Below are positions 1,147-19,934 of a stretch of DNA of 37,647 nucleotides, piece after piece; position 1 is the stretch's first letter; every line of letters begins with the position of its first letter. Under the pieces are notes generated by a model. It was not told the DNA's origin, did not search any database, and saw nothing but the letters and a program-made list of their open reading frames with translations. Source of the DNA: a virus; IMG/VR virus record IMGVR_UViG_3300027747_003941, positions 1-37,647 of that record. One strand, written 5' to 3'. The position numbers and the translations under genes were made by a program.

Positions 1147-1190
1147 ACCCCTTAGCATACCATAAGAACTGCTATGGGGTCATTTTTTTT
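1147..1190 (+). terminator. tRNA trailer hairpin followed by a T-run
   Basis: ACCCCTTAGCA pairs with TGCTATGGGGT (10 of 11 pairs) around the 12-base loop TACCATAAGAAC and is followed by CA and eight T residues. It has the form of an intrinsic terminator for the tRNA transcript. The minus-strand carbamoyltransferase stops inside it (TGA at 1182-1180), so it also sits at a convergent boundary. The same loop and outer stem, with compensatory changes, recur at 37168-37201 after the other tRNA. Confidence 0.7.
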
Positions 1191-2823
1191 CCCAAATACC
1201 TTTAGGAGTAATCAAGTAATCTATAATACCACTATTTAGATGTGCAAACGCATTTTCAGGGTATTCTACGATTGGTTCGTTGTGAACATTGAAAGAAGTG
1301 TTTACTAAGCATCCAATTCCCGTTTTAGCCTTATAATTGCTAAGAATCTTATGAAACAAGCCATTTGATTCAGGCCTAACAATTTGAATTCTTGCCGTCT
1401 TGTCTATTGGATGAACTATTGTTGGAATACTTTCTTTAAATTCAGGCTTGGTGTCATAAAGCAAAGTCATAAAATTAGCCGTGTATTTTGACTTAGTGAC
1501 TTCAAATATCCTTTCGGCATCTTCTTCAATAACTGCAGGTGCAAAAGGCATAAAGTCGTTTCTATGTAACCTATCATTCAATCTTTTGTAAGTATCAGGG
1601 TCTGTACAATCACAAATAATACTTCTATTACCTAATGCTCGTGGACCGTGTTCACTTCTACCTTGATACAAACCAATAATCTTTTTTTGTAATAGTAATT
1701 CAGTAATCCATTCCCAATTTTCTTCCAAAGGGTAAAAAGTCCATTCAGGTAAAATTGCTCCAGCCGCATCACTTATTTGCTGTTCAGAATACTCATTACC
1801 TAAATACATATCCATTTTAAATGGCTTTAATTCAGGATTGAACCGCTTTAAGGCTAACAATCCACAACCTAAAGCCAAGCCTTCGTCACCCATAGGTGGA
1901 GCTACAAATACTTCCTTAACCCAATCCAATTCATTTATACGCTTATTCAATTTAACATTCGCAAATATGCCACCTGACAAGGCTAAATTGTGAATATTGG
2001 GGTATTTATTATGCATGTTATTCAACAACTCAATCACTTTTTGTTCAAAAATGTATTGACCTGTAAAAGCCATATCGCTTAAACATTCATCTGATTTCCA
2101 ATATTTTGAACCAAATTCTTGAAATATAACCCCATACATCTGTTGATAAATGCCACCACTTTCAATATGGTGTCCATCTAAATTAGTTTTAGTTCCTTCA
2201 ATTCTTAACACATTATTCCACTTATGGTATAATTGTTCCCATAATTTCCCATGACTGGATAGTCCGACCACCTTTCCTTCATCTTTTAGCCTTTTAAAAC
2301 CTAATATTTCAGTCAAAGCAGCGTAAAAATGACCTAAAGACATTCTGTTATTAGTAATACCTTCAACATATCTAAGTTGCCCATTTTCTCCTATATAAGT
2401 CTTAGAATTGTATCCATTTCCACCTGAAGCATCGGCACAAAAACATAAAGCAGGTTCTTGAAATCCTGATAAGTAATAAGATGTAGCAGCGTGAGCTTCG
2501 TGGTGGTCAAACTTTAAAAATTTTTGTTGTGGTATTGTAAAATCAAAATAATCCGACAAAAAGAATGTGTCTTCATATTTCAAAAAACTTGTAAAGAAGT
2601 CAATCTTATCTAAGTCAACTCCATAGTCATTTATCAAACAAGTTATAGAAGCAATAGGATACCTTTCAATATTCTTTTCAAAGTCCTTGAATGGTTTTAT
2701 CCTTACTAATCGTTCTTCTTCTAAAACAACGATTAATTCACCTTTTTTAAAGTATGCAACACCACAAGAATGTGCCCCTGCAATAAAAGCAAGTATGTCG
2801 TACTTACAATTTACTAATTTCAT
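1180..2823 (-). CDS. Carbamoyltransferase, NodU/CmcH family
   Basis: This 547-residue enzyme of the NodU/CmcH/TobZ type uses carbamoyl phosphate and ATP to O-carbamoylate a sugar or other hydroxyl, via a carbamoyl-adenylate. Visible marks are the Kae1-like N-terminal half with DHHEAHA at 106-112, a glycine-rich SGGNGYN near 136, GGIFANVKLN near 285, and the C-terminal motif HGPRALGNRSI near 390 followed by MPFAPAV and CLVNTSFN. Length is close to family norm. I chose the ATG at 2823; the codons upstream offer only a TTG. It overlaps the heptosyltransferase gene by 20 bases and is last in the operon. In this setting a glycan is the likely substrate, which is inference. Confidence 0.9.
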   Translation of the reverse strand: MKLVNCKYDILAFIAGAHSCGVAYFKKGELIVVLEEERLVRIKPFKDFEKNIERYPIASITCLINDYGVDLDKIDFFTSFLKYEDTFFLSDYFDFTIPQQKFLKFDHHEAHAATSYYLSGFQEPALCFCADASGGNGYNSKTYIGENGQLRYVEGITNNRMSLGHFYAALTEILGFKRLKDEGKVVGLSSHGKLWEQLYHKWNNVLRIEGTKTNLDGHHIESGGIYQQMYGVIFQEFGSKYWKSDECLSDMAFTGQYIFEQKVIELLNNMHNKYPNIHNLALSGGIFANVKLNKRINELDWVKEVFVAPPMGDEGLALGCGLLALKRFNPELKPFKMDMYLGNEYSEQQISDAAGAILPEWTFYPLEENWEWITELLLQKKIIGLYQGRSEHGPRALGNRSIICDCTDPDTYKRLNDRLHRNDFMPFAPAVIEEDAERIFEVTKSKYTANFMTLLYDTKPEFKESIPTIVHPIDKTARIQIVRPESNGLFHKILSNYKAKTGIGCLVNTSFNVHNEPIVEYPENAFAHLNSGIIDYLITPKGIWEKK

Positions 2824-3910
2824 TATCAATCAAATTAAGTACTTTATCAGATGTAATAGCTTTGTGACACTCGAATTGTCTTGGGGTATCTTCATGTTCA
2901 GGACACCAAGTCCATGACCCACGATTAAACTTAAATAGAGGATTATGCCAACAACTATTACATATCGTATGGTCGTAAATTCTAATAGTATCAATGTTAA
3001 ATTCGTGGTTAGGTTCAGTAAAGTTAGCAATCATAAATACTTTCTTTCGTAAAGCCCAAGCCATCCAAGATAAACCACTTGATAAACCTACAAAGAAGTC
3101 ACAATGATAAATTGTGTTCATCGTATTCTCTAAAGACTTGTCTTCAAATGGTTCTAAGCCAACAAGGTCATTAGTATCAATTCCCATCATATTTGTTTCT
3201 TTAGAAATTTCAACAACCTTGTAACCTCTTAATCTCAAGCCGTCTATTAGTTCCTGCCAATAGTACCAATATTTAAGCATTGCAGTAGAATGAATAGAAA
3301 TACAAACATACTTACCTTCAAATGGTCTTTCTTTTACGAATGACAAATCAATGTTAGGTTGTATTTCATTATAAGGTAGATGCAGAATATTTGTAGCAGA
3401 TTGTTGCAAAGGAATCAAAATTGGATTGACAGGTTCTTTACTTTTTTGCCAATACCAACCAATCTCAAACATACCAATCAAATCATTCACTACGACACCT
3501 CTATCCACAAATTCTAATTCAGGGTAAACATTTTTAAATAAAAAGTTTTTAAATGTAGAAACAACCACTTTACAATCATATTGTTTTGCAAATTCAGCAC
3601 AATAAGGCATCCAAGCAAGAGTATCACCTAATGCTTTACTTTCAAAAGTTATAAAAACTCTTTTGCCTTTTAGTTCATCTAATATGTTTATTTGCTTTAT
3701 AGTACGACCTTCATATCTAACAATAACACTTAAATCTGACAAGTATTTTCTTTCTGCTCTTGCCCATGAACCAACTTTAAGTTTTGATTCATAAAGATTT
3801 GTCTTAGTTGTATTATCATAGAATACTACATCGTATTCTCTATTTTTATTTTCATCCCCCGTTAATTCAAAATAAAGTCCGTTAACATGGTGTATTTTGT
3901 ATGTAATCAT
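2804..3910 (-). CDS. TibC/AAH-like autotransporter heptosyltransferase (BAHT family)
   Basis: This 368-residue protein resembles bacterial autotransporter heptosyltransferases, which put heptose from ADP-heptose onto Ser/Thr of surface proteins. An N-terminal domain of about 80 residues precedes a GT-B core with SKALGDTLAWMPY near 91. The donor-site segment near 275 reads FFVGLSSGLSWMAWAL, and the C-terminal finger has cysteines at 317 and 320 (CNSC), 336 (WTWCPEH) and 348 (FECHKAI). In TibC a comparable four-cysteine finger binds iron. Family members normally act on autotransporters; no autotransporter is in this window. It starts with a TAATG overlap onto the GT4 stop, so the two are translationally coupled. 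Confidence 0.82.
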   Translation of the reverse strand: MITYKIHHVNGLYFELTGDENKNREYDVVFYDNTTKTNLYESKLKVGSWARAERKYLSDLSVIVRYEGRTIKQINILDELKGKRVFITFESKALGDTLAWMPYCAEFAKQYDCKVVVSTFKNFLFKNVYPELEFVDRGVVVNDLIGMFEIGWYWQKSKEPVNPILIPLQQSATNILHLPYNEIQPNIDLSFVKERPFEGKYVCISIHSTAMLKYWYYWQELIDGLRLRGYKVVEISKETNMMGIDTNDLVGLEPFEDKSLENTMNTIYHCDFFVGLSSGLSWMAWALRKKVFMIANFTEPNHEFNIDTIRIYDHTICNSCWHNPLFKFNRGSWTWCPEHEDTPRQFECHKAITSDKVLNLIDNEISKL

Positions 3911-4947
3911 TATTTTTTAATTTGTGTGTTGTTGTAAACATTTTTATATTTTTCTCTAATAGTTTCAGAATTAAAGTTTTGAAACTGCTTTATAGCAAAA
4001 TAATTTTTCTCAATATGTTTACATACATGACTCCAATCGTATTGCTCTCTTTTTTCTGTCATTTCAGTTACTAATTTTGTATAAATATTGCTAACTAAAT
4101 TTATACCCTTAATAACTTCGGCAGTTGAAATTTCATTCATGATGTACATACCTGCCAAATTAGTTCTTCCTTTGTAAGTACCAACTACAGGCATACAACA
4201 ACTAATAGATTCTAAAAGCGTCAAATTAGGGTGTCCATATTCAAGATTTGATGGGTGTAAAAAAATAGTATGGTCTTGAAAAATTTTTAACTTTTCTGCT
4301 TCTGTAGGATTCGTATCGATTATAGTAAGTCTTTCGTATTCCAAAAGGTCGGGTTGTGCTTTAAAAAATCTTGTATTTGCATCTGCACCAACGATAGTGA
4401 TAGGAAGATTTAATTCTTTCGCTGCTTCAATCCCAAACCTAAATCCTTTTCTATCTGCTCCATCAATTCCTGCAACTCCATTATTTGCACAAATAAGAAG
4501 TTTATGTTCAGTTATGTTCATTTTATATTTAGGCAAGTAGTAGCTTGTATCAACTCCATGTGATAAATAAAATAACTTATCAGTTTCATCAAAATAATCA
4601 ACAACGTATTCAGCAGGTGCAAATGAAAATATTGACTTCTTCATCGCTTCTAATTGTTGTTTATAATTAAAACTATCTTTACCATAATAATAACTATGGT
4701 GGTCATGAGTAGAATAAATATATTCAATACCTCTTTTAGCAGCTTCAATACATAAATTAGCAACATGGATGTGTACTATATCGTATTCATTAGGCTGTAC
4801 TTCATTTAAATATTTAAGATGAACTTCATGACCTAATTTTCTTAAGCCTTTACAATATTCATCCATAATTAATTCTGTAGCTCCCCATCCTCTTTCGCCC
4901 GTTGGCTTTATAGGAATATTACTGCTTATAACTTGACAAATTTTCAT
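3910..4947 (-). CDS. GT4-family glycosyltransferase
   Basis: A GT-B retaining-type transferase of 345 residues. The N-terminal half contains YDIVHIHVANLC. The C-terminal half shows ADRKGFRFGIEAAKELN, DHTIFLHPSNLEYGHPNLTLLES and MPVVGTYKG, the usual nucleotide-sugar-binding region of GT4 enzymes, where a glutamate sits in the 'E-x7-E'-like stretch. I start at the ATG at 4947 rather than the in-frame one 30 bases upstream, because the preceding gene ends TAA-T-ATG there, the coupling style of this operon. The start of the mature protein, MKICQVISSN, is the normal first beta strand. Sugar and acceptor are unknown. Confidence 0.85.
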   Translation of the reverse strand: MKICQVISSNIPIKPTGERGWGATELIMDEYCKGLRKLGHEVHLKYLNEVQPNEYDIVHIHVANLCIEAAKRGIEYIYSTHDHHSYYYGKDSFNYKQQLEAMKKSIFSFAPAEYVVDYFDETDKLFYLSHGVDTSYYLPKYKMNITEHKLLICANNGVAGIDGADRKGFRFGIEAAKELNLPITIVGADANTRFFKAQPDLLEYERLTIIDTNPTEAEKLKIFQDHTIFLHPSNLEYGHPNLTLLESISCCMPVVGTYKGRTNLAGMYIMNEISTAEVIKGINLVSNIYTKLVTEMTEKREQYDWSHVCKHIEKNYFAIKQFQNFNSETIREKYKNVYNNTQIKK

Positions 4948-4948
4948 A

Positions 4949-7657
4949 TTATCTAAAGGTTTTATCTTGTTGGTCAATTAATGAAAAGCCACCTGCTTGT
5001 GTGGTTATACGATGATGTAGAATACCCATTTTGTATTCGCTATGCTTAAATATAGTATTGAAATAAATATCCGCAGCATCCCAATTATGTGTTCTTAATT
5101 TATCTTGCAAGTATCTTTTTACAAGTTTAGGGAACATAATACATTGTAAGCCAATGATATGGTTAGTTATGAAAAGTAAATCCTGATTAGGAACTACACC
5201 TGTTACTTTACTTTGTAGCCAACCATGTTCTAATGTGTGAGTATCGCCAAAAGACATATATCCAATATTATTGTCTTCGCAAATTGTTGAGGCCTCGAAT
5301 ACCTTTTTTGCAAATTCTTCAATTGGTATTTCTATAATACAATCCCCTTCGCAAACAATCAAAAAGTCTTCATCATTAAATTCAGTTAAGATTGCATCTT
5401 TGAAGGCTTTGTAACATCCGTAATGTGATGGGGTGAGGGCTGTGCCAAGTCTTTGTATAGTAGGCTCATCGAACAATTCCATTGAAACGCATTCTGGCCT
5501 GATGCAGTTGTGGCTTGGAGGTAGACTCTTGTAAGGTTCGTTAAGGTGGAGGATATATTCGATTCCGTGTTCAGCCACTTTTGATACTGATTCTCTACTT
5601 GCTTGTTCTCGTTCGTCATTTCTTGTAGTTTGTATATGTACTAACTTAATCTTAGGCTTTTTATTTTTGTATTTAAAAATTCCTGTTTGACTATATTTAT
5701 TTATGTTAGTAGGGTTCAATTCATACTTTTCAGTTTTGTAAATTAAATCCTCATCATAAAATTCTAATATTATTTCGATATTCTTGCCTGAATAGGTAAA
5801 TTCTTTTTTGTATTCTCTCGTTTTGCTTAATTGGAATCTTGTATTAAAGAACTCAGCACCATCTTCAAACATACTAACATTTACCTTTCTGTCATCAACA
5901 TTGTAGGTGTAAAAGTAAAACATATATTTATTTGGATGCTTTTCGATAGGTATTATTGAGTAATATTCACTATTTGATGCCACTCCTAAACCACTATTTA
6001 TTAATAGTGTTTCTTGCGGGTTGTCAATCTTAAGCACATCCTTGATATTTCTATCGACCATTTTTACCATATAGTCTTCCAAGAAGTTTTGTGCCCCTAT
6101 TTCCTGACAAATTCTATTGTACTCCTCAGAATTTCTAACATCATGGAATGTATTCAAGAAAAAATCAACGTTAAAAGTCATTCCATTAGTTTGGATACCT
6201 TTGCCAAATGGTGTATTTAAAGTCCCTAAATATGCACCTAAACCTGAATTAACTGCAATAAAAGAATCTTCTACAACACCAAAGTCTTTTTCATCAAGGA
6301 TGACATCATAAGTTGTGTAAAAGAAACTCTTGAAACCTAATTGTTTAGCAGCTTTAGCACCATTAAACATATTTACAAGTACAGTCAATGATTGGTTGCT
6401 ATCTTTCAATCCATTGATATTGATTTCAGAATAGTAGTTATCTGTGTGTCTATAAAATCTTGTATAATATGAATGATGTGTTAGTGGATTATAAGCATCA
6501 AAAATATAGTAATCCACCATTCTTTGAATGTCAGCATCGACAGGATAATGAGATAGCAGCATTATTTTTCTACCTAAAGGCTTAAGACTTTTGATTGTAT
6601 CTTTTGTTAACTGAACTCGGCTCTTCAAATTAGGATATGTACCTAAAATGATAACCTCTTCCTTGTTTTCTTTATTTTTTGGTTGTGTTAGTTCTATTAC
6701 TTTTTGCACATCTAATTGTACATTTCCTGTTAAATAGTGAACATCAGGATGTGCATTGTACCTATTAAGATACACATCTAAGTTGTATAATAATTTAGGA
6801 ATATCGTACTCTAATGCTTCTAAAATAACCAATGGATTTAATTCTTTATTTCCTCTATCACCCTTAGAAGGGAATAAAAACAAGTCTGATGCTTTTAAGA
6901 ATTCTTCTGTGTCGCTTCTTTCACCCCAAACAATACAATTATCCAAATTAGGATTGTTCCTTTTCCAATCCATAAGTGGTTGCCAATAGTTAGCAAAATT
7001 TCCAGCTTGATTACCTAAGAAGTGAAACTTAACTTTATAGTCTGCTAATTTATCAGCCATTTCAAAAGCATACCCTTGATTTTTCCTTTGAGTAAACAAT
7101 CCAATAATAACAATATGTTTATAATCGTGTTCCAAGCCTAATTTTTCTCTTGCTTCTCTTTTATTTCTTTCCTTGTGGTCAACAGGATATTGAATTACTT
7201 CATATTCAACATCTAAATGGTTGTACTTTAAAGCGTTATATGGGCTAACAAATACAAACTTGTCAGGCATATATGTTTTTCTTGCAGGGTCGAAACTGCT
7301 ATCGTGTGTCGTTTCAAGAATGGTGTATGTCCTATTTTTGTCATACAACATATCACTCATTTCCTTATCCATAAAAAATTCAGGAAATTCTTCCATAGAA
7401 ACCACATCAGGTTGCCAAGTGTCAATTATTTCCTTTAATTGTTTTGTCTTGTTTTCGCCAAGTGAAATGAAATTATCATTTCCCACAAGATTTATCATTC
7501 TATTTCTTTGTACAACAAAAGTCCAAGCAACACAATGATGTTCAACAACTTTAATGTCAAATTCATCTTTTATCAATGAAACTTTGTTAACGGTCACTTG
7601 TGGACTGCCACCTGTTGAGTAGTGTGGAGAAATAATCAGTAGTTTCTTTTTATTCAT
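4949..7657 (-). CDS. 902-residue multidomain glycosyltransferase
   Basis: Three parts can be read. Residues 1-335 form a GT4-like GT-B unit with LLIISPHYSTGGSPQVTV, GLFTQRKNQGYAFEMADKL and FLFPSKGDRGNKELNPLVILE. Residues about 340-680 form a middle region with IILGTYPNLKSRVQ, AKQLGFKSFFYTTYDVIL and AVNSGLGAYLG, resembling a GT-A-like fold. Residues about 690-902 form a second GT-A-like unit with FLIVCEGDCIIEI, whose EGD could serve as the metal-binding DxD-like site. Such fusions typically build an oligosaccharide step by step. It is eight bases downstream of the homing nuclease gene and is followed by GT4 with TAATATG spacing. Domain borders are estimates. Confidence 0.8.
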   Translation of the reverse strand: MNKKKLLIISPHYSTGGSPQVTVNKVSLIKDEFDIKVVEHHCVAWTFVVQRNRMINLVGNDNFISLGENKTKQLKEIIDTWQPDVVSMEEFPEFFMDKEMSDMLYDKNRTYTILETTHDSSFDPARKTYMPDKFVFVSPYNALKYNHLDVEYEVIQYPVDHKERNKREAREKLGLEHDYKHIVIIGLFTQRKNQGYAFEMADKLADYKVKFHFLGNQAGNFANYWQPLMDWKRNNPNLDNCIVWGERSDTEEFLKASDLFLFPSKGDRGNKELNPLVILEALEYDIPKLLYNLDVYLNRYNAHPDVHYLTGNVQLDVQKVIELTQPKNKENKEEVIILGTYPNLKSRVQLTKDTIKSLKPLGRKIMLLSHYPVDADIQRMVDYYIFDAYNPLTHHSYYTRFYRHTDNYYSEININGLKDSNQSLTVLVNMFNGAKAAKQLGFKSFFYTTYDVILDEKDFGVVEDSFIAVNSGLGAYLGTLNTPFGKGIQTNGMTFNVDFFLNTFHDVRNSEEYNRICQEIGAQNFLEDYMVKMVDRNIKDVLKIDNPQETLLINSGLGVASNSEYYSIIPIEKHPNKYMFYFYTYNVDDRKVNVSMFEDGAEFFNTRFQLSKTREYKKEFTYSGKNIEIILEFYDEDLIYKTEKYELNPTNINKYSQTGIFKYKNKKPKIKLVHIQTTRNDEREQASRESVSKVAEHGIEYILHLNEPYKSLPPSHNCIRPECVSMELFDEPTIQRLGTALTPSHYGCYKAFKDAILTEFNDEDFLIVCEGDCIIEIPIEEFAKKVFEASTICEDNNIGYMSFGDTHTLEHGWLQSKVTGVVPNQDLLFITNHIIGLQCIMFPKLVKRYLQDKLRTHNWDAADIYFNTIFKHSEYKMGILHHRITTQAGGFSLIDQQDKTFR

Positions 7658-7664
7658 AAAATAT

Positions 7665-8315
7665 TTAATTTAATGCTTCTTTCTTATTTTTATAATATGC
7701 AAGTTTAGAAATTCTTAATTTTTCTTTGTGTTCTTCAGTAAATTTCATTCCTTTTCTTGAATTGCTAAGTTTTAATTTTGATTCTTCTTTCATTATTCTA
7801 CCAGTATTAACAAGCCTCATCTTTTCAAGATTATCTAAATTTAATGGTCTTTTAGATGCTTTTATACTCATAATTTTTTTAGTTTCTTCAGAATGTTTCT
7901 TTCCATAAAAATGATTATTCTCGCCAAAATGTGACAAACTCATTTTAATTAAAGTTTGTATAGAGGCTTTTTTTCCGATTTGAGTAATTCTATGTTTTTC
8001 AATCCATTCTTTGTCTTTTTTAACTCCTGAATTACTTTCACCTCCATCTGAAACATTACACAAATTGCCTAATCCTAAATCATTTCTGCCGTAAAAAGAA
8101 ATTAAATACTTTTCAATTGTACAAGCATCTTCTTTTAATAAATTATTATGAGTAATTTCTATTGTGTATCCAACCTTTTTTACAATATTGTGCCAATATT
8201 TATTTCTTCCTGTATTTTGACTTGCTCTTACTTTAGAAGAACCAATTCCAACATAAAAAACATTTTCAAAATTGTCATCAATGTCTTTTCTTCTATGGAT
8301 ATAAACAATAGCCAT
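7665..8315 (-). CDS. GIY-YIG homing endonuclease with NUMOD3 repeats
   Basis: A 216-residue free-standing nuclease. The GIY-YIG core is at the N terminus (VYI at 4-6, FYVGIGSS at 20-27, arginine at 30, glutamate in IEKYLISFYG near 68, then LCNVSDGGE). The C-terminal two thirds carry NUMOD3-type DNA-binding motifs: NHFYGKKHSEETKKIMS, NTGRIMKEESKLKLS and RKGMKFTEEHKEKL. Such genes spread by cutting alleles that lack them. It sits between two glycosyltransferase genes, starting in a TAATG overlap with the GT9 stop, so it has been accommodated in the operon without breaking a neighbour visibly. Confidence 0.9.
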   Translation of the reverse strand: MAIVYIHRRKDIDDNFENVFYVGIGSSKVRASQNTGRNKYWHNIVKKVGYTIEITHNNLLKEDACTIEKYLISFYGRNDLGLGNLCNVSDGGESNSGVKKDKEWIEKHRITQIGKKASIQTLIKMSLSHFGENNHFYGKKHSEETKKIMSIKASKRPLNLDNLEKMRLVNTGRIMKEESKLKLSNSRKGMKFTEEHKEKLRISKLAYYKNKKEALN

Positions 8316-9253
8316 TATAAATAATCGTTTAAACTAAGTAATACTTGTGATACTGAAGGATGACATTCGTAAGTTTCCTTCTTTTCAAGACATTTTATTA
8401 ATGGTGGAACTGAATTTATATCATCCCAATATTCCATAGCATATTTCATATTAGAAGCACATTCCAATCCACATCCACCACGAACATAACTATAGTTGTA
8501 TCCTTGTCTATTGCCTCTATATGGAATTCTGAATTCAGGTTTAATTGAAGACCCTAAATGAATAATAGGCACATCAGTAGTACCTGCAAGGTGTAGTAAT
8601 CCACTATCCATAGTAACGAATGCACTTGCTTTTTGCATTAAATTCCAACAATCAGATATGGAAGTCTTATTCATTAAGTTTAAACCTTTTTCTATTTCAA
8701 AGTTGAATACTGGCTTTTCTACATTAAAGAAACCTTTTTCAGAAGAATCCTTTCCAACTGACACAACGCTATAGCCTAATTCATTCAATGATTGTGTAAG
8801 TTTCATCCAATTAATTGCATCCCAAGTTCTTGAAGGCCAAGTAGCAACGGGATGAATTAAAACAAACTTTTCAGGAACTTCTATGCTTAATTCAGTTAAT
8901 GGTTTATAGTAACATTCCATTTCATCTTTGCCAAGCATAAATCCCAAGTGAATAGCGTGGAATTGTCTAATATCCATCATATTGTGCTTGTACTCAATAC
9001 CTCTTTCATTCTTTTTACCTACGTTATAAAATGAATTATGAACAATATAATTTGACTTTATATATTCCACATCCACAGAAGAAGATTTATAACTTTTTTC
9101 TACGAAAGGGTTCATTTTAAAAAGTTCAGGCATTTGTGAAATGACTAAAATCTTTTGTTGATATGCTTCTGAAATCTTTTTGATTGTAGGTGTGGCACAA
9201 ATTAAGTCGCCAAGACCATTACATTCGGTTAAATCTAAACAGATTGGTTTCAT
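8315..9253 (-). CDS. GT9-family (heptosyltransferase-type) glycosyltransferase
   Basis: A 312-residue GT-B enzyme. The N terminus has LDLTECNGLGDLICATPTIKK, the GLGD motif of GT9. The C-terminal half has FVLIHPVATWPSRTWD and the donor-site signature AFVTMDSGLLHLAGTTDVPI followed by HLGSS. Family members transfer heptose from ADP-heptose, typically to lipopolysaccharide core. A C-terminal cluster of cysteines (GGCGLECASN, KCLEKKETYECH) may bind a metal, an inference from spacing only. It starts in TAATG coupling with the sulfotransferase gene. Confidence 0.87.
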   Translation of the reverse strand: MKPICLDLTECNGLGDLICATPTIKKISEAYQQKILVISQMPELFKMNPFVEKSYKSSSVDVEYIKSNYIVHNSFYNVGKKNERGIEYKHNMMDIRQFHAIHLGFMLGKDEMECYYKPLTELSIEVPEKFVLIHPVATWPSRTWDAINWMKLTQSLNELGYSVVSVGKDSSEKGFFNVEKPVFNFEIEKGLNLMNKTSISDCWNLMQKASAFVTMDSGLLHLAGTTDVPIIHLGSSIKPEFRIPYRGNRQGYNYSYVRGGCGLECASNMKYAMEYWDDINSVPPLIKCLEKKETYECHPSVSQVLLSLNDYL

Positions 9254-10077
9254 TAAAAGTTATATTTAAAATATTTGTAAAACCATTCGTATCTTTTGTA
9301 AATATAGGTGTAAGGGCCTTCACCTAAAATATGTAAAGCATCTGATTGATTTAGCGAAAGTTTATGTCTTATAGTATGGTCTCCAAATCCACCATGTAAA
9401 GTATCATCTTCTTTTGTGATTTGTTCAATGTAGTCAAAATTGTGACTATAGAAAGGTATTTCTAAATATCGATATATACCTTTCATAACTTCATCAGGAT
9501 TTAGACACAACTCTTCATATCTAACAAAGTGCATATGAACATCGTTTCTAAAATTTATTACTTCTTTAATTCTTTCTATAGCTAAACCAACAGGTATTCC
9601 ATTAGCCCATGTATCAACTCTTTTTTCAACACTTGTATTAATAAGATTTTCCCAATTTATAATAGGACTTAATTTATCAGGATTTTTTCTAAAGTTCTTT
9701 TCCATAGATGCAAATACATCTCTTAAGTCACGAACCATAACAATAATTTTTGGATTTTCTCCTTTGATTAATTTTAACCAATCAAAGTGTACAGCCCAAG
9801 ACCTTCCTTTATCTATGTAATATTTTTTATCCGTAATTGCTTCAGCCCACGCCTCCATACCTGCTTTACAAAACGCAAGAAATCCTTTTTTCATTAATTC
9901 TGCATCTTGAGAAATAAATTCAGGTGAGTTTGTGTAATTGCCTCTTGCACCATATAATAGCTCCATCATGCCACTTGTAGGTGTAGCATATATGTCAGGG
10001 TTTTGTGCTAATATGTTTTGTAATAAAGTTGAACCACTTCGTGGTAGACTACTTTGATAGAAAATTTTTTGGCTCAT
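9253..10077 (-). CDS. PAPS-dependent sulfotransferase
   Basis: A 274-residue protein with the 5'-phosphosulfate loop SSLPRSGSTLLQNIL at residues 9-23 and the 3'-phosphate-binding motif VMVRDLRDVFASM near 113-125, the two signatures of cytosolic and Golgi-type sulfotransferases. It should move sulfate from PAPS to a hydroxyl, here most likely of a glycan. No signal peptide or membrane helix is visible, so it acts in the host cytoplasm. It is coupled by ATGA overlap to the FkbM methyltransferase upstream and by TAATG to GT9 downstream. An APS-kinase-like gene, which would make PAPS, lies about 1.4 kb away on the other strand. Confidence 0.87.
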   Translation of the reverse strand: MSQKIFYQSSLPRSGSTLLQNILAQNPDIYATPTSGMMELLYGARGNYTNSPEFISQDAELMKKGFLAFCKAGMEAWAEAITDKKYYIDKGRSWAVHFDWLKLIKGENPKIIVMVRDLRDVFASMEKNFRKNPDKLSPIINWENLINTSVEKRVDTWANGIPVGLAIERIKEVINFRNDVHMHFVRYEELCLNPDEVMKGIYRYLEIPFYSHNFDYIEQITKEDDTLHGGFGDHTIRHKLSLNQSDALHILGEGPYTYIYKRYEWFYKYFKYNF

Positions 10078-10733
10078 ATTTTTTTCATTAAATAATCACA
10101 AGTAATTGCATCTTTTTGTAAAATGGAGTAACCCATATTCATTAATTTGTTTACTGCAACTGAATTAGTAAGGTCTTCTATCCAAATCAATGGTTTGTAT
10201 TTTAGTAAAGTTTTTTTCATTCCTTCTATAGCAGACAGCTCATGTCCTTCAATATCTAATTTTATAAATGAAATATGCTTATTCATTTCATCACAATCTA
10301 ACAAGTCATCTAATGCTACGATTACGTTTTTATGCATACCATCAGCATCCATTCTTACAACGCCTGAATTACCAATGTGTCCATCGTTAAAAGAAACTAC
10401 TGAAGTTCTACTACCTATTCCCACATTAAATGCATGTACATCTTTGTATCTTTTTACATTTGCTTTTAAAATTTCTGAATTTTGTTCATGTAATTCAAAA
10501 GCCCAAATGCTTAAATCTGGTAAATGATATTTAAACTGAAGACAATGGCTGCCAATATTTGCACCTATGTCAATCATAAGACCATCTTTAGGGAAATACT
10601 CTTTCCATTTATTAAAAAGCTCGAATTCCCAAAAATCATTGTATTTAACAATGTCATCAGAAATACATTCAGGTTCATCATATATGACCATAGGAACACC
10701 TTTTATGTTCACTAATCTTGTAGTTCTAAGCAT
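10074..10733 (-). CDS. FkbM-family SAM-dependent methyltransferase
   Basis: A 219-residue class I methyltransferase. The SAM-binding motif I is LMIDIGANIGSHCLQF near residues 52-67, followed by IWAFELHEQN (acidic residue for the ribose) near 76-85. The FkbM hallmark FIKLDIEGHELSAIEGM is at about 150-166. FkbM enzymes O-methylate sugars and other secondary metabolites. The start overlaps the DUF6165 stop by eight bases, and the stop overlaps the next start as ATGA, so the gene is embedded in the sugar operon. Confidence 0.9.
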   Translation of the reverse strand: MLRTTRLVNIKGVPMVIYDEPECISDDIVKYNDFWEFELFNKWKEYFPKDGLMIDIGANIGSHCLQFKYHLPDLSIWAFELHEQNSEILKANVKRYKDVHAFNVGIGSRTSVVSFNDGHIGNSGVVRMDADGMHKNVIVALDDLLDCDEMNKHISFIKLDIEGHELSAIEGMKKTLLKYKPLIWIEDLTNSVAVNKLMNMGYSILQKDAITCDYLMKKI

Positions 10734-11109
10734 ATTTAGTATAGGATTTTTCTTCAGTAAATTCTGAATTAAAGTGTGTGTTTATTTCTTTTTTAATAGC
10801 AGCTCTTAAATCGTTTTTTAGATAAACCTGTCTTGCTAATTGTATGAAATTATCACCAAAATCTTGGTTTTTTTCGCAGTTTCTTTTACCATCTTCAATA
10901 TCCCAAAGTTCTGAATTTACCTTGAATAGTGAAGAGCAAAGTCTTTCGAAATCTTTGTCATCTTTAATTTTTTGTGAAACTTTTGTAAGAAGATAGTCGT
11001 ACTCTTTTGTAATATTAGCTAATTTGTTAGGGTCTTTAATTTTAGTTCTCTTGAGTTCTAAAATGGTTAATTTGTCAAGAAGCTCCCCTACGCTAACCTT
11101 AATTTCCAT
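10726..11109 (-). CDS. DUF6165 family protein
   Basis: A 127-residue protein with the family pattern IKVSVGELLDKLTILELKRTK at the start (here EIKVSVGELLDK), SELWDIEDGKRNCE in the middle and ND-LRAAIKKEINTHFNSE followed by EEKSY at the end. Its length matches the family, which has no established biochemical role but is repeatedly found beside sugar-transfer genes. It is first in the minus-strand sugar operon. The start ATG at 11109 is preceded by AAAACAGAGAAATT, nearly the same leader as that of recT. Confidence 0.8.
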   Translation of the reverse strand: MEIKVSVGELLDKLTILELKRTKIKDPNKLANITKEYDYLLTKVSQKIKDDKDFERLCSSLFKVNSELWDIEDGKRNCEKNQDFGDNFIQLARQVYLKNDLRAAIKKEINTHFNSEFTEEKSYTKYA

Positions 11110-11197
11110 AATTTCTCTGTTTTAATTAAAAAAATACATTTAATTTTACTGAATGCGAATATAGTAATACTTTTACAAAAAGAGAAAATAAATTTTT
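11110..11197. promoter_or_regulatory. Divergent intergenic region between the sugar operon and the sulfate-type genes
   Basis: These 88 bases separate two diverging transcripts and are very AT-rich. On the minus strand AAAACAGAGAAAT lies just before the DUF6165 ATG. On the plus strand TACTTTTA and TACATTTA resemble weak -7 elements, but I find no TTG at a suitable distance, so exact promoters cannot be assigned. Confidence 0.4.
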
Positions 11198-11434
11198 ATG
11201 AAAAAAATTGACATTAGGTTCAATACAAACTTCCCAACCAAAAGCAAATTTGAATGGCGTTTATTGATTGACGGGGAAGAAACATTAGTAAATAATGTAA
11301 AAATTAATACACCTTGCTACACTACATCAACATTTATTGAAGGTCACGGAATGAAGTGGCATATTACTACAGAAGCAACTCATGTTGAATTCAATAACAC
11401 ATTAATTAACAATAAAATAGCAATTATAAAATGA
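11198..11434 (+). CDS. Small unidentified protein, 78 aa
   Basis: The protein reads as a soluble beta-rich domain (IDIRFNTNFPTKSKFEWRLL, then EETLVNNVKI and GHGMKWHITTEATHVEF) without membrane helix or metal motif. I do not recognise it. Its stop overlaps the start of the APS-kinase-like gene (AAATGATT), so it is first in a coupled plus-strand set and may assist that enzyme or the next one. Confidence 0.7.
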   Translation: MKKIDIRFNTNFPTKSKFEWRLLIDGEETLVNNVKINTPCYTTSTFIEGHGMKWHITTEATHVEFNNTLINNKIAIIK

Positions 11435-11907
11435 TTATACTTTTTTATGGTCAACCTGCTTCAGGTAAAACGACACTTGCTGATGATTTGTATAAAAGAT
11501 TGCAAACTTTCATAAAGTTTACTGAATACTACCACGAATATAAATTTGTTCGTATTGATGGTGATAAATGGAGAGATATAACAAAAAACAAAGATTATTC
11601 AAAAGAAGGTAGAGTTTTAAATTTAAAAGGAGCTTTTAATATGGCAATTTACCTTGAAAAAGAAGGTTTTATACCAATTTTAAGTTTTGTTACACCTTAC
11701 GAGGAGCTTCGTAAATATTTAAAAGAAAATTCGAAACAAGTTGTTGAAATATATCTACAATATGAAGGTGATAGAGGTAGAAATGAAAAATTTGCAAATG
11801 ATTTTGAATTGCCTCAAAGTCCTGATGTAAATATAAATACAACTTATAGGTCAGTTTCAGATTGTGTTGATGAAGTAATTGATTTTTGTGCTCAAAATTT
11901 TAAATAA
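11431..11907 (+). CDS. Adenylylsulfate (APS) kinase-like P-loop protein
   Basis: A 158-residue P-loop kinase. Walker A is GQPASGKTT at 7-15. The acidic pair RIDGDKWR at 41-48 is in the position of the LDGDxxR motif of CysC. GRVLNLKGAFNMAIYLEKEG near 66-85 matches the 'DR-x-x-N-I-R-R' region in position but lacks the arginines, and SFVTPYEELRKYLKEN corresponds to the CysC segment with S-P-x-x-x-x-R. It is slightly shorter than cellular CysC (about 200). If active it would phosphorylate APS to PAPS, the donor for the nearby sulfotransferase. The weak middle motif means another small-molecule kinase role is possible. Confidence 0.72.
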   Translation: MIILFYGQPASGKTTLADDLYKRLQTFIKFTEYYHEYKFVRIDGDKWRDITKNKDYSKEGRVLNLKGAFNMAIYLEKEGFIPILSFVTPYEELRKYLKENSKQVVEIYLQYEGDRGRNEKFANDFELPQSPDVNINTTYRSVSDCVDEVIDFCAQNFK

Positions 11908-11908
11908 T

Positions 11909-12316
11909 ATGTGGATAAAGAAAGTACACGCTAAAAGCACTTTACCAAAAAAAGAAGGACAATATTCATTATTTGTAGGTCGATGGCAGCCTCTACATTC
12001 AGCTCACAAAGAGTTATTTAACCAAGTTATTGAACAAGGCGGTAGAGTTTGTATTGCAATTAGAGAGGGTGAGGTCAATGAAAAGAATCCTTTTACTCCA
12101 AGAGAAGTTATGATGAACATTTGTAAAGAAATGGAAAAAGAAGTAAATTCAGGAAAAGTTAAAGTTATAACAATTCCTGATATAGATTCAGTATGTTTTG
12201 GTAGAGGAGTAGGTTATGATGTTATAGAATTTATTCCACCTGCTGAAATAGCAGAAATTTCTGCTACAAAAATCAGAGAAGAAATGAAAAATAAAATAAA
12301 TGATAGTACAAAATAA
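11909..12316 (+). CDS. HxxH nucleotidyltransferase (NadM/cytidylyltransferase-like)
   Basis: This 135-residue Rossmann nucleotidyltransferase has the substrate loop FVGRWQPLHSAH at 22-33, giving H30 and H33 of the HxGH motif with A in place of G, and the second signature ISATKIREEM near 117-126. Proteins of this superfamily adenylylate or cytidylylate small substrates (NMN, phosphopantetheine, sulfate in ATP sulfurylase, sugar-phosphates). I start at the ATG at 11909, one base after the kinase stop (TAA-T-ATG). Being between an APS-kinase-like gene and DUF2061 suggests sulfate activation, but NMN adenylylation fits the GRWQPLH sequence equally well. Confidence 0.72.
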   Translation: MWIKKVHAKSTLPKKEGQYSLFVGRWQPLHSAHKELFNQVIEQGGRVCIAIREGEVNEKNPFTPREVMMNICKEMEKEVNSGKVKVITIPDIDSVCFGRGVGYDVIEFIPPAEIAEISATKIREEMKNKINDSTK

Positions 12317-12527
12317 AAGACATATAGCAAAAACTATAAGTTATAGATTATTAAGTACTTCCATAGGATTTTTTATAGTTTTTTTAGCTTCAGGAAGTTT
12401 TAAAGCAGGTGCTGCTTTTTCTATAGCTGAATTATTGTATAAACCAATTCAATACTATATACACGAAAGGATATGGTATAAATATATAAAATTTGGTCTA
12501 AAAGTTCCTAAAAAGAAAATTTATTAG
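12300..12527 (+). CDS. DUF2061 membrane protein
   Basis: A 75-residue protein with the family pattern: RHIAKTISYRLLSTSIGFFI, then LASGSFKAGAAFSIAELLYK and YYIHERIWYKYIKFG. It has one or two hydrophobic helices (residues about 17-50). DUF2061 proteins are short membrane proteins of unknown activity; from memory they occur beside cysC/cysD/cysN in many Bacteroidota, which would agree with the two genes upstream. It overlaps the nucleotidyltransferase end by 17 bases. Confidence 0.85.
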   Translation: MIVQNKRHIAKTISYRLLSTSIGFFIVFLASGSFKAGAAFSIAELLYKPIQYYIHERIWYKYIKFGLKVPKKKIY

Positions 12528-13953: not shown

Positions 13954-14637
13954 ATGATTTTTAATGTTACTATAATTCATCATGCCTTACCTGCTATTTC
14001 AGTTGTTGTAGCAGATGGTGGTAATGGCGTAGGTGGAGTAACGTATAAAGAATTAAAGCAATCATTAGGAAATCAAGTCTATGATGTAGGATGTTTATAT
14101 TTATTTTCTGATAACACAAAACAATTAATAGGAACTATTAATTACAATATTTATGATGTAAATGGTAATGCTGAAATTACAAACATAGCAACAACAATTG
14201 ACCCATATCAAGCTGTAAATTCACTATTAGTAAAATTAAACGATAAAGTAAACACACCAATAATTTTAAATGGGAATTCAAGCGTATCAACAACCATTTT
14301 ACCAAATACATATGTACAAATAAAATTTTTAGCTGATAGAATTACTAATAAATTAGGCCTTGTAAATAATAATTTTACTCAAATGCAAGAAATTACTAAT
14401 ACTAATTTCTTTGAATCTACTTATAGTAAAGCAGGAGATGCTTTAAGTTGTTCGGGTAGAGAAAATTTATTAACAGGTCAAAATACTTTAATACAAAAGA
14501 CTGATGTATTAGAAAATTTGCCTTCTAAAACTATAACAACAGATACAGGAATAATTCATAAATATGAACCTGATTATACTTTTTTATTATTAATTGCTTC
14601 AGTTTCTGCTGGAGTTTATATTTTTAGCAAACAATAA
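13954..14637 (+). CDS. Protein with C-terminal membrane anchor, 227 aa
   Basis: The ectodomain reads as beta-rich (VSVVVADGG-like opening, TIDPYQAVNSLLVKLND, PNTYVQIKFLADRI). The last 20 residues are a hydrophobic helix (YTFLLLIASVSAGVYIFSK). No family is recognisable. Stop and start of the next gene overlap as TAATG, coupling it to the threonine-rich protein, so the two may be partners. Confidence 0.7.
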   Translation: MIFNVTIIHHALPAISVVVADGGNGVGGVTYKELKQSLGNQVYDVGCLYLFSDNTKQLIGTINYNIYDVNGNAEITNIATTIDPYQAVNSLLVKLNDKVNTPIILNGNSSVSTTILPNTYVQIKFLADRITNKLGLVNNNFTQMQEITNTNFFESTYSKAGDALSCSGRENLLTGQNTLIQKTDVLENLPSKTITTDTGIIHKYEPDYTFLLLIASVSAGVYIFSKQ

Positions 14638-16670
14638 TGCCAATACAAGGATTAGACATATCGTTAAATGTTAGAAACAATACTAATTACCCACAACAAA
14701 TAAATGTTATGGGTAATCCGTCTAATTTGTTAGATACAGCTAATTCAACAACAGAATATAGGTATGATTTAACAGGTTTTACAATTACTACAGAAAATAA
14801 TGTGTCAATACAATATAGAAGAATCGGAGATTTGTCTTTTTCAATTTTCACTTTTAATTTAGAAAGTACACAACTTAATGGTATTGTATTAGCTTTAAAT
14901 AATTTAGGAATTGGCTATTTTAATTTATATTCAGAATTAGGTAATACATATATTGGTACATATAATGATAATTATGAATTTGGTGATTTAAATGTTTATG
15001 GGTCAACAACCACAACAACTACAACGACCACTACAACAACTGCTGCACCCACTACTACTACTACTACAACTACTACTACGACAACGGCTGCACCTTCTAC
15101 TACGACAACAACAACAAGTACGACAACGGCTGCACCTACGACTACTACTACAACAACAAGTACGACAACGGCTGCACCTACGACTACGACAACAACAACA
15201 AGTACAACAACGGCTGCACCTATCACTACGACAACAACAACAACAACAACAACACCTCCACCTTCTACTACGACAACAACTACAAGTACGACAACGGCTG
15301 CACCTACGACTACTACTACAACAACAAGTACAACAACGGCTGCACCTACGACAACAACAACAACAACAAGTACGACAACGGCTGCACCTACGACTACGAC
15401 AACAACTACTACTACAACAACACCTGCATTCTCTCAATATTCCTTAACATACAATATTGGAGATTTTGCATCAAGTGCTTGTGATGGTAACACAGGAAAT
15501 ACAGGGCCATTTAATTACTATACGGCACTACAACCATTAGCTAATGGGTCAATATTGTATTCAAATCAATCATTATTATCTCCTGCAAATAATGGGTTCT
15601 ATTCAAATAATATATTTAATTGGGAAATTAATGACTCAAATGGTACGTTGACTAATCAAACGCCATGTATTCCTGCAACAACTACTACTACAACAACTAC
15701 AACAACAACAATAGCATTTAGTACTTATAGTTTGCAACCAAGTGGAATAGACCAAGCTGATGCTTGTGCAACTTATCCAAATAGTTTAGTATCGTATTAC
15801 ACTACTTTTGGAACACCTTTACAAGATGGGACAATAATTTATTTAGATTCTGCATTAATGATTGTTGCGGGAAATGGTTATTATTCTGATGGTACAAATT
15901 CATGGCAAATAGCAGGTGAAGATGGAATGTTAGTAAATCAAGCAGCTTGTATAATACCAACAACAACTACGACAACAACTACTACTACAACAACACCTGC
16001 ATTCTCTCAATATTCATTAACATACAATATTGGAGATTTTGCATCAAGTGCTTGTGATGGTAACACGGGTAATGTAGGACCATTTGATTACTATACTGCA
16101 CTACAACCATTATCTGATGGTTCAATTTTATATTCAAATACATCATTAACATCTCCTGCAAATAATGGGTTCTATTCAAATAATATATTTAATTGGGAAA
16201 TTAATGACTCAAATGGTACATTAGCGAATCAAACACCATGTATTCCTGCTACAACAACAACAACTACTACTACTACTACAACTTCAACAACTACAATAGC
16301 TCCAACAAATAATTGGGAATGGACAAATAATAATGTTGCTGAAACTCCTCCTTTTGGTGGTGGTTATATAACTATTGATGTGAATGGTATAAATGTAGTA
16401 AATCAAAACGATACAAGTAGTACTTCTACAATTACTTATAGTGGATACATTCCAATAAATATAGGTGATTTAGTAAGTATTTATGTATACAGCTATGCAA
16501 ATAATACAAGTGGAACATTAACTGCCTTAAATGTACAAAATCCTGTAGGTAATATAATTTATAATGCAAATGACCCACAAAGTAATGCAGGTTCGTCATC
16601 AAGTGAAACATATACATTTAATGCAACTGCAACTGATATGTTGATAATAGCAAGTTCAAATTCTTTTTAA
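14637..16670 (+). CDS. Threonine-rich, mucin-like modular structural protein
   Basis: A 677-residue protein. Residues 1-120 form an N-terminal beta-rich domain. Residues about 122-262 are almost pure Thr with AAP or PPP spacers and a period near 14 residues (T7-S-T3-A-A-P). Three related globular domains of about 80-85 residues follow, near 263-347, 360-441 and 454-538, separated by further poly-Thr linkers. Each has a conserved core of the form Y-x-L, ILYSN, NGFYSNN and NWEI, plus cysteine pairs. A distinct C-terminal domain fills about 558-677. The Thr tracts are probable rigid spacers and possible O-glycosylation sites. No signal peptide or membrane helix is seen, which suggests a virion surface or fibre protein rather than a host-exported one. 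Two glycosyltransferase genes follow directly. Confidence 0.8.
   Translation: MPIQGLDISLNVRNNTNYPQQINVMGNPSNLLDTANSTTEYRYDLTGFTITTENNVSIQYRRIGDLSFSIFTFNLESTQLNGIVLALNNLGIGYFNLYSELGNTYIGTYNDNYEFGDLNVYGSTTTTTTTTTTTTAAPTTTTTTTTTTTTAAPSTTTTTTSTTTAAPTTTTTTTSTTTAAPTTTTTTTSTTTAAPITTTTTTTTTTPPPSTTTTTTSTTTAAPTTTTTTTSTTTAAPTTTTTTTSTTTAAPTTTTTTTTTTTPAFSQYSLTYNIGDFASSACDGNTGNTGPFNYYTALQPLANGSILYSNQSLLSPANNGFYSNNIFNWEINDSNGTLTNQTPCIPATTTTTTTTTTTIAFSTYSLQPSGIDQADACATYPNSLVSYYTTFGTPLQDGTIIYLDSALMIVAGNGYYSDGTNSWQIAGEDGMLVNQAACIIPTTTTTTTTTTTTPAFSQYSLTYNIGDFASSACDGNTGNVGPFDYYTALQPLSDGSILYSNTSLTSPANNGFYSNNIFNWEINDSNGTLANQTPCIPATTTTTTTTTTTSTTTIAPTNNWEWTNNNVAETPPFGGGYITIDVNGINVVNQNDTSSTSTITYSGYIPINIGDLVSIYVYSYANNTSGTLTALNVQNPVGNIIYNANDPQSNAGSSSSETYTFNATATDMLIIASSNSF
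15005..15425 (+). repeat. Poly-threonine codon repeat array
   Basis: A run of ACA/ACT/ACG codons interrupted by GCTGCACC (Ala-Ala-Pro) blocks. The best-kept unit is 42 bases, coding T7-S-T3-A-A-P. Neighbouring units match almost exactly, as expected of expansion by slippage or unequal exchange. Shorter Thr runs occur at about 15679-15712, 15959-15997 and 16252-16303. Confidence 0.9.
15423..15676 (+). repeat. Duplicated globular module, copy 1
   Basis: This roughly 254-base segment encodes the first globular module after the Thr array and is nearly the same at DNA level as 15994-16250, with only scattered substitutions. The intervening module (about 15715-15957) is clearly related in protein pattern but diverged in DNA. 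This points to a recent copying of the flanking modules inside one gene. Confidence 0.85.
15994..16250 (+). repeat. Duplicated globular module, copy 2
   Basis: The partner of the copy at 15423-15676, starting at the same PAFSQYSLTYN and ending at the same TPCIPA. Differences are mostly single-base changes. Confidence 0.85.
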
Positions 16671-18929: not shown

Positions 18930-19934
18930 TTACTTTGCATTATCAATTGAGTTTAAAGTTCCATATATATTTCTAAAGCGTGTTGGTTTTATCGCAGCTC
19001 CTTCAATAATTTTTATTTGGTCATTATTTTCAAGAGTCAAGATAGCACCATTAGAAATTTTATTGTCCATTTCTATTGCTTTTGTACCATAAAGGTCTTT
19101 ATTTAATAGTTTAGAAAGTTGAATTAAGCAAGTTTTTTTTTCTAACCATCTGTTAGGATTTTTTATGTCGTTGAAATACAATTCGTTATCATATTTGTTC
19201 ATATTTTTTACAGCCATGAGTTCATCTCTTGTCATAACAGAGAATTTAGGTTTACCAACTTTATAGTGTGCCACAGCGTAAACGTGAGTAATATTTTCTG
19301 CAGTCCTGACAGCATCATATTTTGGCGTATGTTGTAAAATTGGGGATAAACCATAAGCAATTTTAAGTTTGTCCCCTTTATAAACCACTTCTGCATCTAA
19401 TGATTCTATTTCACCACTTCTTAATAAAAGTTTTACAATTCCTTTGTATCCAATAAGTGGGGTAACACTCATTTTGTAATTCCCGTTTGGTTGCTTTATA
19501 TTTCTTGGGATAAGAAAAAATTCACCATGTAATTCTGAAGGAACTAAACCAATTTCAGCAGCCGTAAGAATAGAAGCAAACATACTTGAAGGGTTTTCTT
19601 GAAACGCTTGTTGCAGTTTTTGATTCTTTTTAACTTCACTTATAGCTGCAAAAACAAATTGTGAAGGGGTAATATTTGGAATATTTTGTAACAACTTTGG
19701 TAATAGCTCTTGTTCATATCTTTCCATATAAACGCTAAACTTTTTAATTACAGGTAGTTCATCAACTTTACTCATCTCATCAACTACTTTTAGAAAGTCT
19801 TCGTATTTGCTAATTTTTGCAGTTTCATAAACTTTTTTCCAATCAATAATATTCATAAAATTAAAATTTAAATTAAGTTGTTCTGGTACAACTTTAAACC
19901 CCTTTGTTTTCTTTAAGCCTGAGTCACGGAACAT
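18930..19934 (-). CDS. recT: RecT/Redbeta-family ssDNA-annealing recombinase
   Basis: The core from about residue 55 to 290 shows the RecT signature: SMFASILTAAEIGLVPSELH, GEFFLIPRNIK, VTPLIGYKGIVKLLLRSGEI and SLDAEVVYKGD. RecT anneals single strands made by its partner exonuclease, whose gene is 82 bases upstream in the same transcript. Two starts are possible. The first is 19934, preceded by AAAACAGAGAA as at 11109, which gives 334 residues. The second is 19856 (MNIIDWKKVYET), giving 308 residues, closer to normal. In the second case the first 26 codons are leader. Confidence 0.92.
   Translation of the reverse strand: MFRDSGLKKTKGFKVVPEQLNLNFNFMNIIDWKKVYETAKISKYEDFLKVVDEMSKVDELPVIKKFSVYMERYEQELLPKLLQNIPNITPSQFVFAAISEVKKNQKLQQAFQENPSSMFASILTAAEIGLVPSELHGEFFLIPRNIKQPNGNYKMSVTPLIGYKGIVKLLLRSGEIESLDAEVVYKGDKLKIAYGLSPILQHTPKYDAVRTAENITHVYAVAHYKVGKPKFSVMTRDELMAVKNMNKYDNELYFNDIKNPNRWLEKKTCLIQLSKLLNKDLYGTKAIEMDNKISNGAILTLENNDQIKIIEGAAIKPTRFRNIYGTLNSIDNAK

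Follow-up and report, generated by a model that had tools for sequence, protein, structure and literature searches.

A candidate PAPS synthase encoded with a sulfotransferase and a glycan operon in an environmental virus

Introduction

Two kinds of adenylyltransferase are known in sulfate activation, Sat and CysDN. A CysC-like kinase is also used in the O-methyl phosphoramidate (MeOPN) pathway of Campylobacter, where it acts as a CDP-phosphoramidate kinase. The locus described here lies in IMG/VR virus record IMGVR_UViG_3300027747_003941, a 37.6-kb sequence (positions 1 to 37,647) that was analysed whole and is called the window. It carries a sulfotransferase gene, an APS-kinase-like gene, a small HxxH nucleotidyltransferase (NT) gene and a DUF2061 gene. 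An earlier note, made from the letters of the window, had grouped these four genes as a sulfation set, and all four were located where it had placed them.

In the proposed pathway, the NT would use HxxH adenylyl-transfer chemistry to convert sulfate and ATP to adenosine 5'-phosphosulfate (APS) and pyrophosphate. The adjacent kinase would phosphorylate the 3'-hydroxyl of APS with a second ATP to give 3'-phosphoadenosine 5'-phosphosulfate (PAPS), and the sulfotransferase would move the sulfuryl group from PAPS to a sugar hydroxyl of a glycan built by the neighbouring glycosyltransferase, methyltransferase and carbamoyltransferase operon. The DUF2061 protein would be a small membrane accessory with a possible part in the supply of sulfate. 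Context and homology speak for the first two steps, and family membership for the third. It is likely that the three enzymes act in this way on a virus-encoded glycan as a self-contained sulfation module, in which we infer that sulfate is the NT acceptor, that the glycan is viral and that DUF2061 has a role.

More broadly, we lean towards the view that sulfate adenylyltransferases have a third class of independent origin, the NT family, built on the NadM/PPAT (phosphopantetheine adenylyltransferase) fold. Together with an APS kinase, it would form a minimal PAPS synthase for sulfation rather than assimilation, used by Patescibacteria, Marinimicrobia, some SAR11, Omnitrophota, planctomycetes, haloarchaea and many environmental viruses. 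The NT belongs to neither known sulfate adenylyltransferase family, and the candidate PAPS synthase is widespread and undescribed as far as the open literature goes. Searches of open-access literature returned no NadM-like ATP sulfurylase, viral PAPS synthesis or haloarchaeal PAPS source, which is no proof of absence.

Gene neighbourhoods in viruses and cells

NT profile searches recovered at least 469 viral and at least 451 genomic relatives, and the best 80 of each were kept. With one duplicate left out, 79 viral loci besides the window were counted (loci, viral or cellular, carry L numbers). The kinase gene lies upstream of the NT gene on the same strand in 77 of them, and the two overlap in 65 of these. 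A DUF2061 gene is present in 60 of the 75 viral loci with at least 1.5 kb of downstream sequence, and a homologous sulfotransferase is found within 2.5 kb upstream in 41 of the 54 with at least 3 kb of upstream sequence. In L008, a sulfotransferase 48% identical to that of the window stands directly upstream of the kinase, and one strand reads sulfotransferase, kinase, NT, small protein, DUF2061 and a glycosyltransferase-like gene. In L007, the kinase, NT and DUF2061 genes adjoin genes that by eye resemble tail sheath and tail tube genes. This grouping is far beyond chance and recurs in dozens of viral contigs. The earlier note had suggested a survey of phage contigs and had called a viral supply line for sulfation unusual; the set does recur, and that judgement has to be given up, as the set is common in environmental viruses. 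The pairwise distances of kinase and NT also co-vary (Mantel r=0.80, 140 loci, 0 of 999 permutations as high), a signal to which shared ancestry alone contributes.

The same pair is found in cells, both as adjacent genes and as fusions. The two genes are neighbours in Marinimicrobia, in a metagenome-assembled genome (MAG) of Flavobacteriales and in a marine group III archaeon, and in Peribacteria, where they are likewise adjacent, the NT gene comes first and the kinase gene second. NT-kinase fusions occur in Omnitrophota, planctomycetes and some Patescibacteria, and kinase-NT fusions in acidobacteria, haloarchaea, alphaproteobacteria and one Bacteroidetes MAG. When the cellular neighbours were scanned with Pfam, 5 of 44 proteins matched Sulfotransfer_5, and 6 of 57 and 3 of 46 matched Sulfotransfer_3; arylsulfotransferase-type proteins, sulfatases and one protein with a PAPS-reductase domain were also found.

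A phyletic test covered 50 genomes (G numbers) with the kinase-NT pair, mostly drafts. Sat (PF01747) was detected in 3, 11 had a CysD-like match scoring 185 bits or more, and 38 had neither. Of these 38, 18 have a sulfotransferase (17 Sulfotransfer_3, and one, G004, Sulfotransfer_5), and in most of these genomes the pair's own kinase is the sole apsK match. Single absences are weak, and it is the repeated pattern that counts as evidence. A sulfotransferase gene shares a contig with the kinase gene, at a distance of about 5 kb or less, in alphaproteobacteria (G036, G039, G041, G042 and G044), Omnitrophota (G014 and G019), SAR11 (G045) and Patescibacteria (G025, G049 and G052). The same holds, with Sulfotransfer_5, for G004, G005, G006, G007, G010 and G012, and Marinimicrobia are among the groups with this linkage. 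Among 287 genomes drawn evenly from one Patescibacteria phylum, the NT was present in 8, Sulfotransfer_3 in 16 and both in 4, so that Sulfotransfer_3 occurs in 4 of 8 genomes with the NT vs 12 of 279 without it (Fisher p=4e-4).

These counts bear on a rival explanation that we consider unlikely, in which the kinase makes PAPS from APS of the host and the NT serves a related step of surface modification by adenylating a different acceptor. The alphaproteobacterial carriers, which often also have CysD-like genes, would fit it, as would the fact that the NT acceptor is a prediction. However, coupling or fusion of kinase and NT is nearly universal, and the 38 carriers described above have no detectable source of APS besides the NT.

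The nucleotidyltransferase

An NT model built from 77 aligned sequences, with three rows from annotated phage records left out, reached a mean pLDDT (predicted local distance difference test score) of 91.9, and a model from the lone sequence reached 45. The fold matches PPAT 1gn8 (Z 10.2, root-mean-square deviation 3.3 over 112 residues) and, in a tie, NMNAT (nicotinamide mononucleotide, NMN, adenylyltransferase) 1f9a (Z 9.8, deviation 3.0 and 27% identity over 110 residues). No ATP sulfurylase was among the listed structural matches. PF01747 gave no match to the NT at E<=1, and the Sat motifs QxRNPxHxxH and GRDHA are absent. By sequence and model, the NT is an HxxH enzyme and not of the CysDN type, which combines a PP-loop CysD with a GTPase CysN.

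Among sequence profiles, NadM is the best match of the NT, but the similarity is mostly confined to the first 70-80 residues, and the NT has no counterpart of the second half of this profile. The NadM-like character named in the earlier note thus holds for the first half of the protein but not for the second. The adenylyl-transfer motifs HxxH and ISxTxxR of NadM are kept. GRxQPxHxxH, GRxxG and SxTxxR are invariant across the NT family (77-80 rows), and GRxxG mostly reads GRxVGY. Arg52, within IR[DEN], is near-invariant in the NT, whereas NadM has IGSA or IGSS at this place and no GRxVGY. The stretch that aligns with CNALW of 1ej2 reads CFGRG; Asn84 and Trp87 of 1ej2 are presumably NMN contacts. 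In trees, the NT clade is split from NadM with branch support of 99/99 and in 100% of 200 bootstrap trees. These differences in motifs and clade make it unlikely that NMN is the acceptor; with an APS kinase as partner, sulfate would be the one that fits. Orthology to NMNAT, which would have spoken against a role in sulfation, was not found: the clade is separate, the NadM second half is missing, and the scores lie far below the NMNAT cut-offs (40.7 vs 127 for NF002243 and 33.7 vs 181.2 for TIGR01527).

The same comparison weighs on a second rival, NAD salvage or repair, in which the kinase would phosphorylate nicotinamide riboside or a similar nucleoside, the NT would adenylate NMN in a NadR-like manner, and the neighbouring sulfotransferase would be coincidental. 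The best named matches of the NT are NMNATs, the model also matches NMNAT, and in phage Bhz60 a fused kinase-NT gene stands beside a NADAR gene. We nevertheless hold this explanation to be quite improbable, as the NT forms its own clade without the NadM second half and with CFGRG for CNALW, the neighbours are sulfotransferases, and the kinase is APS-kinase-like, is replaced in one locus by a canonical CysC, and in fused form is a curated APS kinase.

The kinase

The window kinase scores 48.3 bits with PF01583, above the gathering score of 21.1, and its best NCBIfam match is apsK (2.6e-16). It keeps the P-loop lysine, DGD, Arg48, an aromatic residue (Tyr56), Arg61 and Asn64, and we take the Asp, Arg, aromatic, Arg and Asn residues to be APS contacts. 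These APS-site residues are kept, with Phe changed to Tyr, in the window and in 20 aligned viral kinases. The earlier note had pointed to missing CysC arginines. The arginines of the ENIRR segment are indeed lost, but the presumed APS contacts are all in place. The window kinase is predicted, from these residues and its family, to phosphorylate APS to PAPS. Fused relatives from Planctomycetota, Scalindua, Acidobacteria and haloarchaea score 199.6, 180.7, 172.4, 158.8 and 150.5 bits with apsK, above its cut-off of 138.7.

A Marinimicrobia locus, L101, gives the clearest pointer: its kinase slot holds a canonical CysC (268.6 bits with apsK; E 2e-64 to the solved APS kinase 6b8v), whose gene overlaps the NT gene by one base. 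The aminotransferase, Sulfotransfer_5, 562-aa protein and NT of this locus are 61-82% identical to their counterparts in L094 and L099, which carry a divergent kinase with 26-30% identity to the L101 CysC. In this conserved neighbourhood, a true APS kinase has thus come to occupy the kinase slot. Neither Sat nor CysD was detected in the L101 genome (G012). The nearest family of the kinase is thus APS kinase, its fused and in-place relatives pass the curated cut-off, and the non-APS kinase family that would have told against the earlier note did not appear. With neither this outcome nor NMNAT orthology found, its sulfation reading is supported and stands on firmer ground than it first seemed.

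A third rival, which we regard as very unlikely, is that the pair activates another oxyanion or an amidate and that the "sulfotransferase" moves that group: the Campylobacter kinase is a CysC-like enzyme with a non-sulfate substrate, and the short kinases of SAR11 and phages form divergent subtypes, but a canonical CysC occupies the same slot, several different sulfotransferase families are neighbours, and the HxxH fold presumably differs from that of the MeOPN cytidylyltransferase.

A single-protein scan of viral contigs with the window kinase found nothing; relatives were found by the NT alignments. A kinase match in MT838634 ("Bacteriophage sp.") was dropped as an unverified 5-kb fragment with bacterial-looking genes.

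Observations that weigh against a role in sulfation

Several observations count against the proposed sulfation module. The nearest named relatives of the NT are NMNATs, and hhalign of the NT against two Sat sequences gave a probability of 4%. The apsK score of the window kinase is far below the curated equivalog cut-off (59.8 vs 138.7 bits). Of the 38 genomes with neither Sat nor CysD, 20 show no sulfotransferase by two Pfam models, and absences are soft, since many genomes are incomplete MAGs or single-amplified genomes. The loci were taken as the 80 with the highest scores in larger sets and are no random sample.

In the SAR11 order (Pelagibacterales), the NT occurs in 193 of 247 sampled genomes, for which reason a co-occurrence test is uninformative in this order. 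In the SAR11 loci read, the NT usually follows a short kinase and lies amid osmolyte-catabolism-like genes (dimethylglycine-dehydrogenase-like, electron-transfer-flavoprotein-like and enoyl-CoA-hydratase-like), with no sulfotransferase beside it. Examples are G037 and its relatives, L173:5247-6028, L174:5624-6423 and L178:5487-6268; L175 and L176 showed no kinase next to the NT. Casjensviridae carry a fused kinase-NT gene (L002:2584-3321, L005:2584-3324 and L006:1578-2324), which in Bhz60 comes directly after the annotated NADAR gene; the other two phages look alike in gene order. The SAR11 and Casjensviridae versions may run the same chemistry to another end, or they may use a different acceptor.

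The window locus

In the window, two divergent gene runs meet at 11109/11198 (Table 1). The plus-strand run reads 78-aa protein, kinase, NT and DUF2061, each gene overlapping or abutting the next. The minus-strand run, from 11109 to 1180, reads DUF6165, FkbM, sulfotransferase, GT9, the NUMOD3/GIY-YIG-like gene, the 902-aa glycosyltransferase, two further glycosyltransferases and the carbamoyltransferase. The NT frame is open from 11879 (TTG), its relatives point to the ATG at 11909, and the latter is most likely the true start.

Table 1. Genes of the proposed sulfation set and the neighbouring glycan operon in the window (GT, glycosyltransferase)
Feature	Coordinates	Strand	Match or remark
78-aa protein, assigned to the set	11198..11434	+	43% identical homolog in L008
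APS-kinase-like protein, 158 aa, proposed APS to PAPS step	11431..11907	+	PF01583 (APS_kinase) E=1.4e-12
HxxH nucleotidyltransferase (NT), 135 aa, proposed sulfate + ATP to APS step	11909..12316	+	PF01467 (CTP_transf_like) E=4e-7
DUF2061 small membrane protein, 75 aa, putative accessory	12300..12527	+	PF09834 E=2.3e-14
Sulfotransferase, 274 aa, proposed PAPS user	9253..10077	-	PF13469 (Sulfotransfer_3) E=2e-19
DUF6165 protein, first gene of the glycan operon	10726..11109	-	PF19662 E=1e-11; also in L076, L081
FkbM-family methyltransferase, glycan operon	10074..10733	-	PF05050 1.4e-10; fkbM_fam 3.8e-21
GT9 glycosyltransferase, glycan operon	8315..9253	-	PF01075 9e-18
NUMOD3 gene	7665-8315		N-terminus GIY-YIG-like (by eye)
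902-aa glycosyltransferase, glycan operon	4949..7657	-	PF00534 5e-10
GT of the glycan operon	3910-4977	-	Pfam
GT9-like gene of the glycan operon	2804-3910	-	Pfam
Carbamoyltransferase of the glycan operon	1180-2829	-	Pfam

The window sulfotransferase exceeds both Pfam cut-offs (Sulfotransfer_1, 65.7 vs 22 bits; Sulfotransfer_3, 71.1 vs 27) and has a PSB-like loop, SLPRSGST, at its N-terminus. From its family membership, it is predicted to be of the PAPS-dependent type. The carbamoyltransferase at the end of the operon suggests that the viral glycan may be carbamoylated besides being methylated and sulfated. Close homologs of the window GT9 and the 902-aa glycosyltransferase occur in two viral contigs (L076:332-5802 and L081:2866-8330), which also carry DUF6165, DUF2061, kinase and NT genes in a rearranged order. 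This shared but rearranged content suggests that the glycan module travels as one piece. The NUMOD3 gene, which interrupts the glycosyltransferase operon, is probably a homing endonuclease gene.

The window DUF2061 protein scores 54 with PF09834, above the gathering score of 23.1. The earlier note had described DUF2061 as a neighbour of cysC, cysD and cysN in Bacteroidota. DUF2061 was found in 11 of 119 Bacteroidota genomes searched, and the description is true for some of these 11 (L179, L181 and L182, where it lies near CysD-like, CysC-like or CysH-like genes). In L185, it lies near a CysQ-like gene. These Cys-type labels rest on motifs and on reading of the sequences. A role of DUF2061 as an accessory in sulfate supply is a guess. 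The 78-aa gene is assigned to the set. Its product occurs in 26 viral loci and is fused to DUF2061 in 16, which suggests that the two probably act together; fusions in L034, L041, L044 and L049 lie near 4393-4850.

Elsewhere in the window, a 677-aa protein (14637-16670) has no PHROG or Pfam match, and its gene lies in a stretch (15001-16500) where GC is higher and the skews differ strongly. Positions 18930-19934 encode a RecT-like annealing protein (phrog_148), and 25521-26516 a DUF932 protein; a single-sequence scan of viral contigs with the DUF932 protein gave no relative.

Implications and comparison with known systems

If the proposed pathway is correct, it would explain surface sulfation in cells without assimilatory sulfate reduction. 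A third, small kind of adenylyltransferase would be present in most sampled SAR11 genomes, in Patescibacteria, in archaea and in viruses, and small enzymes for PAPS regeneration would become available. Viruses would bring their own supply of sulfate donor along with genes for the sulfotransferase and the glycan, and this points to sulfation, during infection, of glycans of the virus or of the host surface. Such small pairs lend themselves to simple assays, which opens the idea to direct test.

Four known systems resemble parts of the set. The fused kinase-cytidyltransferase of Casjensviridae, annotated as a "kinase" in phrog_10255 and with a related protein in Stenotrophomonas phage DLP_6, is the same kinase and NT pair. 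It differs in its short-kinase subtype, in that no sulfotransferase was seen nearby, and in its NADAR neighbour in Bhz60. NadM (PRK01153, TIGR01527; 1f9a and 1ej2) shares with the NT the HxxH fold, GRxQPxHxGH and ISxTxxR. In contrast, the NT has the GRxVGY region in place of the NMN site and IR[DEN] for IGS[AS], is about 30-50 residues shorter, and forms a separate clade. CysC (PF01583, TIGR00455) shares the P-loop, DGDxxR, aromatic, Arg, Asn and P....R segments with the kinase. In the viral kinase, which is shorter, the ENIRR arginines and the RDxKGxY...FTG segment are missing, and its score stays below the curated cut-off. The bifunctional PAPS synthases (PAPSS1/2 and bacterial Sat-CysC) differ in their adenylyltransferase, since the NT is about 115-135 aa long and NadM/PPAT-like, with no detectable sequence kinship to Sat and without its motifs. 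They nevertheless carry out the same two steps as proposed here, their APS kinase part is homologous to the kinase, the genes are likewise fused or coupled, and they too are found with sulfotransferases, as in G024, which carries Sat-CysC beside a sulfotransferase.

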